Assembly: GCA_937139605.1 (NCBI GenBank) | Contig: CAKZQG010000014.1 | Coordinates: forward strand, 1-5,455 | DNA from: an uncultured bacterium | Lineage (GTDB): Bacteria; DRYD01 | DNA: 5,455 nucleotides | Reading direction: 5' to 3' | Part shown: positions 449 to 5,455 of the stretch, in pieces | Numbering within the stretch: position 1 is the stretch's first letter | How the letters are laid out: every line of letters starts with the position of its first letter | Notes under the pieces: model-generated | Databases searched by the model: none | What the model saw: the letters and a program-made list of their open reading frames with translations, nothing else | Told to the model about the DNA's origin: nothing | Translations under genes and position numbers: made by a program

Positions 449-646
449 TTATTCTACCCTTACTCTATACTTTATTTTATATTTATCTAACTCTTTAGTC
501 ATATTAACAAATTCATTATAACATTTAAATACCTCTTCATTTCTATCCGAAAATATTACTATATCATCTTTATATACAGGAACAGGGAAATGGTCATATT
601 CAAGCAATGTAATTCTATAAATAGGATATTTACTTTTCTTTTCCAT
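449..646 (-). CDS. Small protein of unknown function
   Basis: I do not recognise this 65-residue protein. It has a lysine-rich start (MEKKSK), two or three short strands (YPIYRITLLEY, DDIVIFS), a helix from about residue 35 to 53 (NEEVFKCYNEFVNMTKEL) and a final basic strand (KIKYRVRVE), giving a small beta-alpha-beta fold. AGGAGG lies 5 nt before the ATG, and the gene overlaps the end of the nuclease gene by 17 nt, so it is almost certainly translated. A link to nuclease function, for example as a small partner or inhibitor, is only suggested by adjacency. Its DNA shares the very low GC of the upstream genes. Confidence 0.75.
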   Translation of the reverse strand: MEKKSKYPIYRITLLEYDHFPVPVYKDDIVIFSDRNEEVFKCYNEFVNMTKELDKYKIKYRVRVE

Positions 647-1238
647 TCTTTCCTCCTACATTTATGTAATTATAAATAGTTAATAACGCTTTGAATACTT
701 CAAAATACTCTTTCATATCCTTATATGATAACATCTTAAACTTATACCCTTCAGAACTCAAATACAATAAGCCACCATCTAAATTTCTTCCCAACTTATT
801 GTTATTAACTAATTGGGAATACGCAGCTAACTGTATATAATGTTCTTTATAATATCTACCAGTTTTTATATCAAGTATAACCTCTTTACCATCTATAGTA
901 CATATCTTATCAATAGTACCAGCATATATCAACTTAGAATGATATAGTGACAATTCATTATACTTAGGTTTACAATTATAATCAGAACAAAACTCAACAT
1001 ATTTTTGAACAAGTATATCTACATCAGTTCTTGTTAGTATCCAATTATAATTACCTGTATCATAATTTTCGATTTCTTTATGAACTTCTGTTCCAAAATC
1101 TGCTTTATCTTGTAATAGCTTTTTATCTACGTATTTGAATTTATCTTCGGTAAGTAATTTTATGATTTGAGTTACACTTGGGATAAGATTACCATTAAGA
1201 TAGTATCTATGGTCTATCTTATCTAAAGTACTATTCAC
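630..1238 (-). CDS. PD-(D/E)XK exonuclease, RecB-like
   Basis: This 202-residue protein has the motif order of RecB-type PD-(D/E)XK nucleases: GTEVH (49-53, H53), an acidic residue before the core strand (E95 in NELSLYH), AGTID (106-110, D110), ILDIKTG (121-127, D123 and K125) and QLAAY (136-140), the QxxxY motif. D110, D123 and K125 would bind metal and catalyse cleavage. The cysteines present (C84, C89, C113) do not form the Cas4/AddB iron-sulphur pattern, so a cluster is unlikely. Together with the Bet-like annealing protein in the same operon, it probably plays the part of lambda Exo, resecting double-strand ends to give ssDNA. It starts at GTG, one base after the primase-helicase stop; AAGGAG 8 nt upstream fixes this start. 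An overlapping ATG one frame away is followed at once by TGA and cannot be used productively. A CRISPR Cas4 role is not supported, as no cas genes or repeats are present. Confidence 0.87.
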   Translation of the reverse strand: MNSTLDKIDHRYYLNGNLIPSVTQIIKLLTEDKFKYVDKKLLQDKADFGTEVHKEIENYDTGNYNWILTRTDVDILVQKYVEFCSDYNCKPKYNELSLYHSKLIYAGTIDKICTIDGKEVILDIKTGRYYKEHYIQLAAYSQLVNNNKLGRNLDGGLLYLSSEGYKFKMLSYKDMKEYFEVFKALLTIYNYINVGGKNGKEK

Positions 1239-1239
1239 A

Positions 1240-2985
1240 TTATATTCTCCTTATTTTCTTAGTTACTGGATTATATTCAGTTGTGATTTCAAACAGTTCT
1301 TTATCTCTACCACCTTGTGCTTTAATAAGTCTGTATTGACTATTTCTTTCACCTTCTATTGTAATTACATAATTAGCTTTCTGTTCTATTGCAGATGAGC
1401 CTTTACCAGAATGGATAGTTAAATCTTTACGTTTATTGTTAGCATCTTCAACTGATGATTTACTTATATGATGAACTAAAATAAATATTCGTTTTAATGA
1501 ATTAGCTAATTCTCTTATTCCATTAGCTAAATATTCAGTCTTGCTTGTATAATCCTCTTTTTTAACTGATATTTGATCAATGGTATCAATTACTATTGCC
1601 TCTACATCGGAATCAATAATAAACTTTCTTAAATCTTCTAAAGTAATTGATTTATCATAAAAGTTAAATGAATCTAAAAAATTTAACTTATCTGAATTGC
1701 TTTTAATTAATTCTATTGCTTCTGCTTCATCACAATGATTTTCTATTTGAATCAATCTTTTAATCTCAAGTGGGATACCATTCTCTAATGGTAATAATAA
1801 CCACCTTAAATGCTTATTTTTTAACACAATATTATTTATGATAGTTGACTTACCTAACTTAGTATCACCAAAGGCTACCATATACTCACCTGGATAAATA
1901 TTAACTTCCATTTCTAATCCAAGTGCATTAGTTAAACTAACATACTTGGAAGTCTTAATAAAATCTAAATAAGACCTAACGTCTGTTATTGCATCAGTTC
2001 CTCTAATTACTTTACTATCATAATTCTTATGTGTAAAATAAATACATTTAGGGTCACAAAATTCTGACATAACATAATCATTACATCCAAATCTATATCC
2101 TTTATCATATACTCTATCTACTACATTTGATATACTATTTTCATCTAATGTATTAGCCCACATTCTAAGTAAATTGAATGTAGCTTGTTTATGTAATCCT
2201 TGTCTTCGCCAAGCTGAAGCTAATCTTAGTATATCTGTATTTCTTCTACCTATTACTTGCCCTCTTAAATACAACTTTTGCATACAAGTTACTATTCTTG
2301 TAGGATCATCTAAGCTACTAATATTAACTTCTACATTATTAAATACCTTAAAACTACTTAAATCTCTTTCGAATTCACTTCTTGTCGAAACATATTCTTT
2401 ATTGGGATTTTTACTTAATTCTATTATTTCAGCACTACTTAGACTAAATAATTCCTTATATTCTAATGGTATTTTATATCTACCAGATTTAGAATTATAA
2501 GAATATTTACCTCTAATTACTCCTGTAGTTTTATATATAGAATTATCCAATTGTGGGAAATGTTCTTTAATAGTATTTTTAACTGTCTTAATAATATTAC
2601 CAAATCCAAATTTAAAATAATCATTGATATAGATATGATAACCTCTGCCTGAATACCAAATATCTATTTCTTTTTCAGATAAATCCCACTTAAATATTAA
2701 TTCTTTTACAAATTCTCTAGCTTTTTCCAATACGTAATCATCTGAATTTTTACCAATATCAATGTCAAATACTATGTCATCTACACCTATATTACCATTA
2801 AATCCTTTAATACTACCATTTTGTTGAAAATATTTAACAATTTCTTCATTAAAGTAAAATATAGAAGTATAATAATCAGTTTTAGAATTAAGTAAATTAG
2901 TTATTTCAGATTCCAGTTCATCTGTAGTATAGAGGAAACCTCTATTTCTGAGGTTTCCTACTATTAATTCCCTATACTTTAACAT
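1240..2985 (-). CDS. Fused AEP-type primase and DnaB/Twinkle-like (SF4) helicase
   Basis: This 581-residue protein appears to unwind DNA and synthesise primers on one chain. Residues 1-185 match an archaeo-eukaryotic primase: metal-binding F-D-I-D (D74, D76), S-G-R-G-Y-H (112-117, catalytic H117), then D147 with R158 and the block RGKYSYNSKSG before KIPL, the region where AEPs carry their third catalytic acid and R-x-P-x-S signature. Residues about 220-320 form a helical domain with C234, G-R-R-N (246-249), C301, C310 and C314, like the cysteine-bearing primase C-terminal/PriL-like domain. Residues 365-581 are a RecA-fold helicase: Walker A GDTKLGKST (373-381), E401 after LLLPL, Walker B IVIDTID (464-470), HH at 505-506, GKGSSAIEQ (527-535), and KAQGGR (555-560) in the place of the DnaB arginine-finger segment. 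The ATG at 2985 is the first start after an in-frame stop, but its AAGG lies only 3 nt upstream, so translation is probably coupled to the overlapping gene before it. No DnaB N-terminal or TOPRIM domain is present. Confidence 0.88.
   Translation of the reverse strand: MLKYRELIVGNLRNRGFLYTTDELESEITNLLNSKTDYYTSIFYFNEEIVKYFQQNGSIKGFNGNIGVDDIVFDIDIGKNSDDYVLEKAREFVKELIFKWDLSEKEIDIWYSGRGYHIYINDYFKFGFGNIIKTVKNTIKEHFPQLDNSIYKTTGVIRGKYSYNSKSGRYKIPLEYKELFSLSSAEIIELSKNPNKEYVSTRSEFERDLSSFKVFNNVEVNISSLDDPTRIVTCMQKLYLRGQVIGRRNTDILRLASAWRRQGLHKQATFNLLRMWANTLDENSISNVVDRVYDKGYRFGCNDYVMSEFCDPKCIYFTHKNYDSKVIRGTDAITDVRSYLDFIKTSKYVSLTNALGLEMEVNIYPGEYMVAFGDTKLGKSTIINNIVLKNKHLRWLLLPLENGIPLEIKRLIQIENHCDEAEAIELIKSNSDKLNFLDSFNFYDKSITLEDLRKFIIDSDVEAIVIDTIDQISVKKEDYTSKTEYLANGIRELANSLKRIFILVHHISKSSVEDANNKRKDLTIHSGKGSSAIEQKANYVITIEGERNSQYRLIKAQGGRDKELFEITTEYNPVTKKIRRI
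1247..1252 (-). promoter_or_regulatory. Ribosome binding site that fixes the GTG start of the nuclease gene
   Basis: On the minus strand AAGGAG is 8 nt before GTG (1236-1238) and lies inside the final codons of the primase-helicase gene. The alternative ATG two bases earlier is followed directly by TGA, so GTG is the only productive start near this site. Confidence 0.85.
2933..2959 (-). repeat. Perfect 10-bp inverted repeat (hairpin) inside the primase-helicase gene
   Basis: AGGAAACCTC at 2933-2942 and GAGGTTTCCT at 2950-2959 are exact reverse complements, separated by 7 nt. In the mRNA this would be a 10-bp stem with a 7-nt loop at +27 to +53 from the A of the start codon, coding for residues about 9-18. 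The stem is 50% GC inside DNA of about 25% GC. One arm is also part of a smaller inverted repeat (AGAGG-AAA-CCTCT, 2931-2943), so two alternative folds are possible. There is no U-run, so it is not a standard intrinsic terminator. Confidence 0.75.
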
Positions 2986-3229
2986 ATACCTTATAATGCT
3001 TTTGTTTGCTTTTCTTTGGTAACTCTATTTCTTCTATTTTATAAACATCGTTATCTTTTTTAAAATCTCGCCATTCCCTTGCAAATGTTTCTGGATTGTG
3101 AAATATATTAAATCTACTCTTAGCAAAATCCACAACTTCTTGTTGAATATTGTTAGAAGTAATAACCACACTATCTCTACCAAGTAATTTATTTTTCAAG
3201 TAAAGATTGATTATCTGTTTTACTGTCAT
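2972..3229 (-). CDS. Small basic protein, possible winged-helix DNA-binding or replication accessory protein
   Basis: This 85-residue protein is not recognised. It starts with a short helix (VKQIINLYLKNKLL), followed by a segment rich in V and I, then a helix-rich centre FNIFHNPETFAREWRDFKKD (about 40-59) and two lysine-rich strands at the end (EIEELPKK-like and KHYKVYVKV). The pattern of a helix carrying R-x-W/F-x-x-x-K followed by a basic beta hairpin resembles small phage winged-helix proteins, but the match is by shape only. GGAG lies 7 nt before the ATG. The gene overlaps the previous one by 41 nt and its TAG stop lies 11 nt beyond the start of the primase-helicase gene (14-nt overlap), so it may be needed for translation of that gene. 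Being placed directly before the replicative enzyme, a helicase-loading, origin-recognition or regulatory role is conceivable but unproven. Confidence 0.7.
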   Translation of the reverse strand: MTVKQIINLYLKNKLLGRDSVVITSNNIQQEVVDFAKSRFNIFHNPETFAREWRDFKKDNDVYKIEEIELPKKSKQKHYKVYVKV

Positions 3230-3414: not shown

Positions 3415-3420
3415 CCTCCT
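3415..3420 (-). promoter_or_regulatory. Strong ribosome binding site overlapping a stop codon
   Basis: AGGAGG on the minus strand overlaps the TAG stop of the SSB-like gene (3419-3421) and precedes the ATG of the 73-residue protein by 4 nt. The stop-SD-start overlap implies coupled translation. Confidence 0.8.
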
Positions 3421-3997
3421 AAAATATATCTTCTTCTGGCTGACTTTGAGTTTCATCTGATTTACTATGTTTCTTAATTACATAATCCTTCGGAACGTAT
3501 TTATGAAATGTATTTATCAATTCTAATTTATTAGCTTCTGTTGCTTCTTTAATTAACCAAAAGTCTTTAGTCCCATTTTCAGTTGGATAGCGTATTATAA
3601 AGATATTTCTACCAATAAATGATTTTAAATATTCACTTTGTAGTGTAAAATCATCATTAATCTGTATATCACTATCACTTAATTCACTAAGGAAATCATA
3701 AATAGCATTTTTCTTAGTTAACCACCCTAAACATACAGTAGGTTTACCAGATATTTTATCTGTTTCCCATAAGTAATTACCAAACAAGTATTTCTTATAT
3801 TCATATTTCCCTGAAGTTAATACCAATTCTATACATAATTCAGGAACAAAATCATTCTTACCAAGTCTGCTTATTGACTTTCCAGGTGCATTACTATGGT
3901 CAATTATATCAGTTATTTCATACTTAACTAAAGCAATACCTCCACTTAGTGGGATAAAATTATTCTGAAGCGACTTCTTCGTTGGTATTGTTGGCAT
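3419..3997 (-). CDS. Putative phage ssDNA-binding protein with SSB-like acidic C-terminal tip
   Basis: The body (192 residues in all, about 15-170) is beta-rich, with alternating hydrophobic strands such as IALVKYEITDII, PELCIELVLTS and RNIFIIRY and several aromatics (Y66, Y70, F72, W77, W92, W147). This suits an OB-fold-like ssDNA binder but is not a recognisable canonical SSB sequence. The last residues are a low-complexity polar linker ending PEEDIF (187-192). This closely resembles the acidic, phenylalanine-terminated tip of bacterial SSB (DDDIPF type), which docks replication and recombination partners. The start is well supported: AAGGAG lies 7 nt upstream of the ATG, inside the 3' end of the annealing-protein gene, which it overlaps by 38 nt. 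Position right after that gene agrees with an ssDNA-handling role. A DUF669-like phage protein is the main alternative. The ssDNA-binding role is inferred from tail, composition and context, not from a family match. Confidence 0.6.
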   Translation of the reverse strand: MPTIPTKKSLQNNFIPLSGGIALVKYEITDIIDHSNAPGKSISRLGKNDFVPELCIELVLTSGKYEYKKYLFGNYLWETDKISGKPTVCLGWLTKKNAIYDFLSELSDSDIQINDDFTLQSEYLKSFIGRNIFIIRYPTENGTKDFWLIKEATEANKLELINTFHKYVPKDYVIKKHSKSDETQSQPEEDIF

Positions 3998-4784
3998 TTA
4001 ATATCTCCTTTATTTTATTAGTAATTATTTCTTTATCTGATTCTAATAATTTATCTTTTTCTAATCCAAGTTCATTTAATGCTTGCATAACTACTTCCTT
4101 AGAATTATTAGCTAAAGCAAATAAATCTAATTTAGTAGCTCTGCTCATTAATTCTACATTTTTATTAGCATTAACTTTAGCAATCATTTCTTTTTCTATT
4201 TCTTGTAACTGTTCAAATGTCATATTACTCATTTCTTCTGCTAAATAAGGCATACCACCAAGCTCATTTGGGAATGATAATCTAAATCCAATACCAATAG
4301 CACACTTGGTAATCATAAAGGATGGCATAGTTTTCCAACTACCTAATAATTCTCCATCGGCATCTCTTTTAGCAAATTCATTAAACAGTATTTCAAATTC
4401 AAATGGAACTGACCAATCCTTTCTAATTATAGTTATCTTAGCTGATATTATATTAGAACCTTCCTTAGTTAATCCAACAGACCATCCACCAAGTAACCCA
4501 GTAGCTTCTGCTCTTTGTACATAAACTTGATAACCAGTTACTACTGTCATTACACTTTCTTTAACCCATTTATCACCCTTCTTTACTCTTCTTTCATAAG
4601 GAATTGCATATATCTCTCTTTTAAATGGATTTAAATTACTCATAATTGCAATATTTTTGAATAAAGTCTTCTGTGGCTCTGTTAAATTAGTTTCAGTCCC
4701 GAATAAATAATCATCAATATCTTTTTCACTTACTCTACTAGCTATTTGAACACTCCCTTCATATTTGATAGGTTTTTCACTCAT
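3960..4784 (-). CDS. bet: Red-beta/Bet-type single-strand annealing protein (RecT superfamily)
   Basis: This 274-residue protein has the layout of the lambda Bet family of single-strand annealing proteins, which coat ssDNA and anneal complementary strands during phage recombination. Visible signatures are NPFKREIYAIPY (residues 52-63, compare NPWTREIYAFP in lambda Beta), VVTGYQVYVQRAEATG (81-96), an I-x-RKDW segment (119-124), and a C-terminal core block from SWKTMPSF to YLAEEM (149-185). That block has the conserved W, P, K and a run of small and hydrophobic residues. Residues 190-274 are helical, charged and variable, as in the family's C-terminal domain that contacts SSB and nuclease partners. 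Length is close to lambda Beta (261). The ATG has GGAG 8 nt upstream (4793-4796) and overlaps the previous stop as ATGA. The gene sits upstream of an SSB-like gene and, four genes later, an exonuclease, giving a Red-like set. Use of the symbol bet reflects family membership. Confidence 0.9.
   Translation of the reverse strand: MSEKPIKYEGSVQIASRVSEKDIDDYLFGTETNLTEPQKTLFKNIAIMSNLNPFKREIYAIPYERRVKKGDKWVKESVMTVVTGYQVYVQRAEATGLLGGWSVGLTKEGSNIISAKITIIRKDWSVPFEFEILFNEFAKRDADGELLGSWKTMPSFMITKCAIGIGFRLSFPNELGGMPYLAEEMSNMTFEQLQEIEKEMIAKVNANKNVELMSRATKLDLFALANNSKEVVMQALNELGLEKDKLLESDKEIITNKIKEILNANNTNEEVASE
4005..4010 (-). promoter_or_regulatory. Ribosome binding site of the SSB-like gene, inside the annealing-protein gene
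   Basis: On the minus strand AAGGAG (AAAGGAG with one more base) sits 7 nt before the ATG at 3997. It lies within the last codons of the Bet-like gene and decides the start, which produces a 38-nt overlap between the two genes. Confidence 0.85.
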
Positions 4785-5455
4785 AATTTTGTCTCCGATA
4801 TTAATTCAAACATCTTTAATGACTTATTTGGATGGTCTTTATATTCAGGCGAAGAAGAAATATAATCAGTAGCCGCATTATAAATATTCCATAAAGTATT
4901 GTTATCTTCCTTGTAAAAATAATAACTACTTTGTCTATCTTCAAGCAATTTTACTGCTTTAACAATAGGTGTCGTTCCTAAAACATTATCTCTTACACTT
5001 CTTTTTAGTATATTCCCTATAACATAATTATATTCTTCTGGCTTTAATCTCCTATTGTTCATATCTTCAATTTTTCTAAAATAATCTTCAATCAATTCTG
5101 TAATACAGTTATGATAATTCTTCAAATGATTATAAGATACTCTATAATTACTCAATAAATCCATCTGAAATATATGGTCTGCATTAAATACATTCAAGTT
5201 GTTACAAGCTACTGCATTTAATCCTGCATATACCTTAATTATTGGCTTACTTACATCTAAAGCATATATCATACCTACTATTGGACTGAAAACACCTATC
5301 CCATTTAATAATTCAGCATTAAACCTTTTCTCAATTCTTACTCTTGCATAACTAACATTTTCAGTACCATCTTCATTTTTATTAACTACTCTATCACTTC
5401 CAACAATTACTAAATTGTCTTCTCCTGTTATATCTAAAAACGGAGTAATATAATC
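4781..5455 (-). CDS. DUF932-like phage protein, 5'-truncated at window edge
   Basis: The frame is open to the right edge of the window, giving 224 visible residues; the true start lies outside. The ATG at 5272 is internal, because the 61 codons before it are open and read as good protein (SYARVRIEKRFN, then FSPIVGMIYALD). Two stretches resemble the DUF932 (phage/plasmid-like) family: GLNAVACNNLNVF near visible residues 78-90, and LWNIYNAATDY near 188-198, which matches the family's usual W-x-x-YNA-x-T-x-Y C-terminal signature. The middle is helical and charged. The biochemical role of DUF932 proteins is not established; they are common in phage and plasmid early regions. The TGA stop overlaps the start of the annealing-protein gene as ATGA, so the two are probably translationally coupled. 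The family call is by motif memory only and is moderate; that the gene is real and truncated is near certain. Confidence 0.7.
   Translation of the reverse strand, partial: DYITPFLDITGEDNLVIVGSDRVVNKNEDGTENVSYARVRIEKRFNAELLNGIGVFSPIVGMIYALDVSKPIIKVYAGLNAVACNNLNVFNADHIFQMDLLSNYRVSYNHLKNYHNCITELIEDYFRKIEDMNNRRLKPEEYNYVIGNILKRSVRDNVLGTTPIVKAVKLLEDRQSSYYFYKEDNNTLWNIYNAATDYISSSPEYKDHPNKSLKMFELISETKL

Follow-up and report, generated by a model that had tools for sequence, protein, structure and literature searches.

Profile searches and structural models confirmed the prediction that an AEP primase and an SF4 helicase of the DnaB/T7 gp4 class are joined on a single chain in the 581-aa protein studied here, in the order AEP, PriCT-1/four-cysteine domain, helicase. 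Its gene probably encodes the primase-helicase of a tailed phage, a primosome that would combine unwinding with priming, and stands beside genes for RecT and an exonuclease. The reading frame (1240..2985, minus strand) starts with ATG, contains no internal stops and lies in a window that comprises the entire 5,455-bp contig C14 (27.6% G+C) of a 1.88 Mb assembly in 45 contigs. The protein represents a widespread family whose members link priming covalently to unwinding by means of an archaeal/eukaryotic-type primase, and for which the GenBank phage collection contains no full-length counterpart. A preliminary description of this DNA, made from the sequence alone, had allowed that a known fusion family would lower the novelty of the find. 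This holds for the architecture, as AEP-SF4 helicase fusions have already been published, but apparently not for the sequence family. No published description of a PriS-like, four-cysteine SF4 fusion family was found in the literature searched, which mostly excluded subscription papers, and what appears from the sequence comparisons to be new is the family itself, with its PriS-like primase, four cysteines and SF4 motor, in many uncultured phage contigs.

The fusion protein and its relatives

An alignment of four sequences (the window protein, the standalone primases of KLEB27-3 and MTATph1, and one bacterial AEP) retrieved 222 stretches coding for relatives from IMG/VR. Both halves lay in one frame in every one of the best 80 of these 222, which were kept and gave 64 different complete proteins, about 580-607 aa long and with 27-32% identity to the window protein. 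A search with a second alignment added L096 and L097, which are closer to it (34%). When IMG/VR and the genome contigs were searched with a single sequence, no relatives were returned, so that the family was reached only by alignment-based searches. With the window protein, an IMG/VR member or L096 as the query, none of 50,697 GenBank phage records reached 80% coverage; neither a pattern scan of 84,980 genomes nor a second scan of genome contigs gave a full-length relative; and tblastn against plasmids produced partial matches only (AEP-only or helicase-only), with no full fusion. In BFVD, a single viral protein of 584 residues matched from end to end with 23% identity (9.8e-35); several proteins of 620-650 aa named Prim_Pol aligned over about 600 columns. 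Judging from these searches, this is a sizeable protein family, known so far almost only from uncultured tailed phages.

Taken alone, the window protein matched AAA_25 (1e-4) and PriCT_1 (0.007) in Pfam, both below the cut-offs. Against PHROGs it matched a primase family over residues 68-292 (phrog_16345, 2.4e-12) and DnaB-like helicase families over residues 362-578 (down to 3.4e-21). The full-length model had a pLDDT of 78.7 and a pTM of 0.44, at which the relative placement of the domains is not predicted; an AF2 model of the N-terminal 325 residues alone reached a pLDDT of 84. The preliminary description had named structure prediction as a check, and the models support both folds. Residues 1-208 (2362..2985, minus strand) were predicted to adopt the AEP fold: the top 50 PDB entries for the N-terminal model were exclusively AEPs (Z 10-12.6), among them human Pri1 (12.6 over 192 residues), LigD-type (12.5), Prim-PolC (12.4), CAPP (12.3) and Pfu PriS (11.8) structures. 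At the sequence level, a profile of the AEP half also hit archaeal PriS (2.8e-4), and motifs I, II and III lined up. The superposition on AEP structures and the alignment with PriS motifs suggest, indirectly, that D74, D76 and H117 lie close together in space. Among 21 family members examined by Pfam, the PriS model DNA_primase_S matched one and the Prim-Pol model matched none.

All of the AEP signatures proposed earlier were recovered. Motif I, D74-I-D76 (2758..2766), would supply metal ligands and aligns with 'lvFDIDa' of PriS; motif II, S112-G-R-G-Y-H117 (2635..2652), would bind nucleotide and aligns with 'ysgrgyhi' of Pfu PriS; motifs III and IV run from D147 through R158, N164 and K166 to Y170-K171-x-P173 (2467..2547; all three on the minus strand). 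Identical in all 65 full-length sequences were D74, D76, S112, G113, G115, H117, D147, R158 and K166; Y170, K171 and P173 were likewise kept in 65/65 and N164 in 64. The superfamily motifs I (hhhDhD/E), II (sxH) and III (hD/E) are therefore present throughout as D74, D76, H117 and D147. The motif II/IV combination of the family is H117-R158-N164, that of archaeal PriS being H-R-H (PMC5862659).

Residues 325-581, including a linker helix at 329-345 (1243..2013, minus strand), matched the folds of G40P, DnaB, T7 gp4 and Twinkle at Z of about 19-23, profile searches of this half likewise returned DnaB, Twinkle and T7 gp4, and the DnaB_C Pfam model matched 20 of the 21 members (best 1.8e-18). The helicase motifs also fell where the preliminary description had placed them: Walker A, GDTKLGKS, at 373-380 (1846..1869), E401, the Walker B region, AIVIDTID, at 463-470 (1576..1599) and the H3/H4 region at 500-545. 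G373, K379, E401, D467 and D470 were identical in 65/65 full-length sequences. Against the window protein these sequences show no more than about 27-32% identity, and with invariance on this scale the primase and helicase motifs are not chance resemblances. One helicase motif varies. L059, L096 and L097 keep the K-x-R of DnaB, which reads G558-G-R560 in the window (1306-1314) and K-x-T/S in the majority of IMG/VR members. R560 (1306..1308, minus strand), equated by inspection with the DnaB arginine finger, is thus shared by the window protein and these three relatives, while most others have T or S instead. In the main group the usual arginine finger seems, from the sequences, to be lost, and hydrolysis may be organised otherwise than in DnaB.

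The four-cysteine middle domain

Between the two catalytic halves lies a feature missing from the preliminary description, a helical PriCT-1 domain accompanied by four cysteines (2044..2286, minus strand). C234 precedes and C301 follows PriCT-1 (about residues 241-294), C310 and C314 come shortly after, and all four cysteines were identical in 65/65 full-length sequences. The PriCT_1 Pfam model matched 17 of the 21 family members in one search and 20 of 21 in another (best 7.3e-10). The last three cysteine positions were also present in all five aligned standalone or MCM-fused relatives and the first in four of them, being shifted by one residue in the other. We consider this arrangement a candidate iron-sulfur or zinc site of PriL type at C234/C301/C310/C314.

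Kazlauskas et al. (PMC5862659) proposed homology between PriCT-1 and the larger half of the Fe-S domain in PriL. In yeast PriL, the Fe-S ligands are C336, C417, C434 and C474, and in archaeal PriL most of the small subdomain is missing, which leaves the two C-terminal ligands in a variable linker (PMC2852410). The order and grouping of the four family cysteines agree with those of the PriL ligands, though direct sequence evidence for PriL is weak: the DNA_primase_lrg model matched 4 of the 21 members (best 0.0044), and sequence comparison with PDB chains found no PriL homology, leaving the weak Pfam matches only. It is possible, rather than probable, that the family joins a complete archaeal/eukaryotic-type primase core, PriS-like with a minimal PriL-type four-cysteine [4Fe-4S] domain, to a bacterial-type DnaB motor, making it a single-chain iron-sulfur primosome across a large group of uncultured tailed phages. 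At 581 aa, the protein would make a compact model in which to study the contribution of a PriL-type four-cysteine domain to the initiation of primers.

Gene neighbourhood and proposed role

On the minus strand of the window, the genes follow in the order partial ORF, RecT, 192-aa protein, 73-aa protein, 85-aa protein, primase-helicase, exonuclease. The partial ORF (4781-5455, minus strand) is cut by the contig end and has a weak DUF932 match (0.091). The next gene (3960..4784, minus strand) encodes a RecT-family single-strand annealing protein (PF03837, 9.5e-19; phrog_10056, 1.8e-30). The 192-aa protein (3419..3997, minus strand) had no Pfam or PHROG family match; it resembles a 183-191-aa gene of L096 and L097 in length and position, with a weak hhalign match, and may have an SSB-like role. 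The 85-aa protein (2972..3229, minus strand) overlaps the start of the primase-helicase gene by 14 bp, and a relative of it stands directly upstream of that gene in both L096 and L097 (tblastn 6e-7 to L097; hhalign 96% to both). Directly downstream lies a PD-(D/E)XK exonuclease (630..1238, minus strand; phrog_298, 2.7e-25).

This neighbourhood is partly conserved. In L096 and L097, the gene order is similar to that of the window, with the 183-191-aa protein and the 85-aa relative before the primase-helicase, and L096 carries an AAA_24 (Sak4-type) gene at the position of the annealing protein. An exonuclease of the window's PHROG occurs near the fusion gene in 20 of the 80 IMG/VR loci (best 80 of 222), and the IMG/VR loci also carry Sak4 and HNH/Endo VII genes. 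A 67-aa gene common in these loci was compared with the 85-aa neighbour and proved unrelated. The 54-kb record of one relative contains terminase, portal and major head genes, showing that the carriers include tailed phages.

If the primosome reading is right, the C-terminal SF4 motor would probably assemble into a ring, travel along single-stranded DNA and open the fork, while the N-terminal AEP on the same chain, aided by the PriCT-1/four-cysteine domain, would lay primers on the exposed strand. The fusion would in this way play the part of T7 gp4, its primase being unrelated by descent. The gene belongs to a module with an exonuclease and an annealing protein, which is RecT here and Sak4 in relatives, and annealed recombination intermediates may accordingly serve as further starting points for forks. 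We favour a primosome on the strength of both folds, the invariant catalytic residues of both halves, the fusion in each of the 80 loci kept, the trees of the two halves, the pairing of this AEP with a DnaB-like gene in phages that lack the fusion, the neighbouring annealing-protein and nuclease genes and the tailed-phage genes of the 54-kb record. Counted against it were the sub-cut-off Pfam scores of the window protein, the altered K-x-R, the pTM of the full-length model and the source of the sequence, a contig of 5.5 kb from a bin in an assembly of metagenome type.

Two other roles were weighed against this one. The AEP half could itself replicate the phage genome as a complete primase-polymerase driven by the helicase half, in the way proposed for NrS-1; NrS-1 (PMC12205980) and S-2L (PMC8065100) have been reported as PrimPol-only phages. 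This idea also draws on the 14 fusion-bearing IMG/VR records of 44-60 kb, possibly fragments, in which neither DNA_pol_A nor DNA_pol_B was detected by searches that gave positives in control genomes. However, only families A and B were searched for, and many phages of such size use the host polymerase. A PF03237 terminase search was moreover negative in all 14 records, yet one of them has a terminase by PHROG, which calls for caution over single-family absences in this set. Characterised AEPs have no proofreading and are thought to act chiefly as primases in vivo (PMC5862659), and on balance we regard a genome-copying polymerase as improbable. We give much less credence still to a role mainly in recombination or repair, in which the enzyme would fill gaps or join ends in the manner of LigD, together with RecT and the exonuclease, instead of serving a fork. 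The adjoining RecT and exonuclease genes would suit such a role, as would the match of the AEP fold to LigD-type and Prim-PolC polymerase domains (Z 12.4-12.5); but by Z, PriS structures match equally well as those of LigD, the AEP is fused to a helicase of replicative class with a DnaB_C signature, and Pfam and PHROGs gave no Ku or ligase match among the ORFs of the window.

Other genes recur in the IMG/VR loci. ThiF/E1-like (PF00899, 3.9e-20) and JAB-domain (PF14464, 4.4e-4, below the cut-off) proteins are found about 2-3 kb upstream of the primase-helicase, for example at L080:5976-6647 and L043:4269-5222, their clusters occurring in 34 and 20 of 42 loci; their sequences suggest a ubiquitin-like conjugation pair in these phages. 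Two recurrent proteins had no Pfam or PHROG match, one of about 1,100 aa in 33 loci (L074:8890-12192, minus strand) and one of about 540 aa in 17 loci (L043:2634-4259).

Known systems and exchange of modules

The preliminary description had likened the layout of the protein to that of T7 gp4, built from a different primase, and our results support the comparison: the primase comes first and the helicase last, with an unrelated primase in the TOPRIM slot. T7 gp4 and Twinkle share the domain order and the helicase class with the window protein, but their primase is of the TOPRIM type and not an AEP; correspondingly, the window protein had no Toprim match in Pfam, whereas phi 21A gp4 gave Toprim_2 at 3.6e-10. 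In corynephage BFK20 gp43, the C-terminal part is an SF4 helicase. This protein likewise serves phage replication and contains an AEP prim-pol domain, which is described as belonging to the Prim-Pol clade (PMC4538821). Kazlauskas et al. (2018, PMC5862659) described AEPs of the PrimQH, All3500 and InversePrim families joined to RecA-type helicases of the RepA/DnaB kind. The present family resembles these in carrying a PriCT domain, in combining its AEP with a RecA-type (SF4) helicase in a single polypeptide and in its place in mobile elements; it differs in its invariant motif II His, in its H117-R158-N164 combination (64/65) and in the four invariant cysteines flanking PriCT-1. PrimQH has Gln or His in motif II and falls in PrimPol-PV1 cluster 1; only His was seen here (65/65). 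In InversePrim, PriCT-1 precedes the AEP, while here it follows it (residues 241-294 after 1-208). PolpTN2 carries a PriS-like domain and a PriL-like four-cysteine Fe-S domain on one chain, as our candidate may, but its motif II His is replaced by Gln, and it is reported as PriS plus PriL with no DnaB-type helicase fusion (PMC3973330).

Closer to the family are the AEPs of KLEB27-3 (Bacillus), MTATph1 (Moorella) and G20c (Thermus), which consist of the same AEP, PriCT and four-cysteine module with the helicase encoded as a separate gene nearby. The family profile scored them at 151, 107 and 57 bits, respectively, and a primase-MCM protein of vB_BboS-125 at 98 bits. In this Bacillus phage the same AEP module is again fused to a helicase, here an MCM (AAA+) and not SF4, in a 1,027-aa protein (L091:4839-7922) near a DNA polymerase I gene. 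The earlier wording that the primase module had been swapped is therefore fair, the module occurring both alone near other helicases and fused to MCM. That one AEP module is found paired with a DnaB-like protein encoded by its own gene, in an MCM fusion or in a DnaB-type fusion indicates that phages freely recombine the parts of their replisomes.

A simple merger of neighbouring genes such as those of MTATph1 was considered and not favoured. The profile of the fused helicases scored 68 bits against cellular DnaB, 45 against a T7-like A-4L protein and only 12 against the separate MTATph1 helicase, to which they are thus weakly similar, and these scores agree better with helicase partners having been exchanged. 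When each half was placed in a tree, the 23 fused rows all fell on one side of a branch, with support of 98/95 for the helicase and 84/90 for the primase. Both trees are compatible with what may have been a single origin of the fusion, within the limits that long branches place on inference. A standalone 388-aa AEP of the same type was also seen in a bacterial assembly (L005:1339-2505; G140 contig C25), followed by a serine-recombinase-like gene; it groups with the fused family, apart from the other standalone AEPs.
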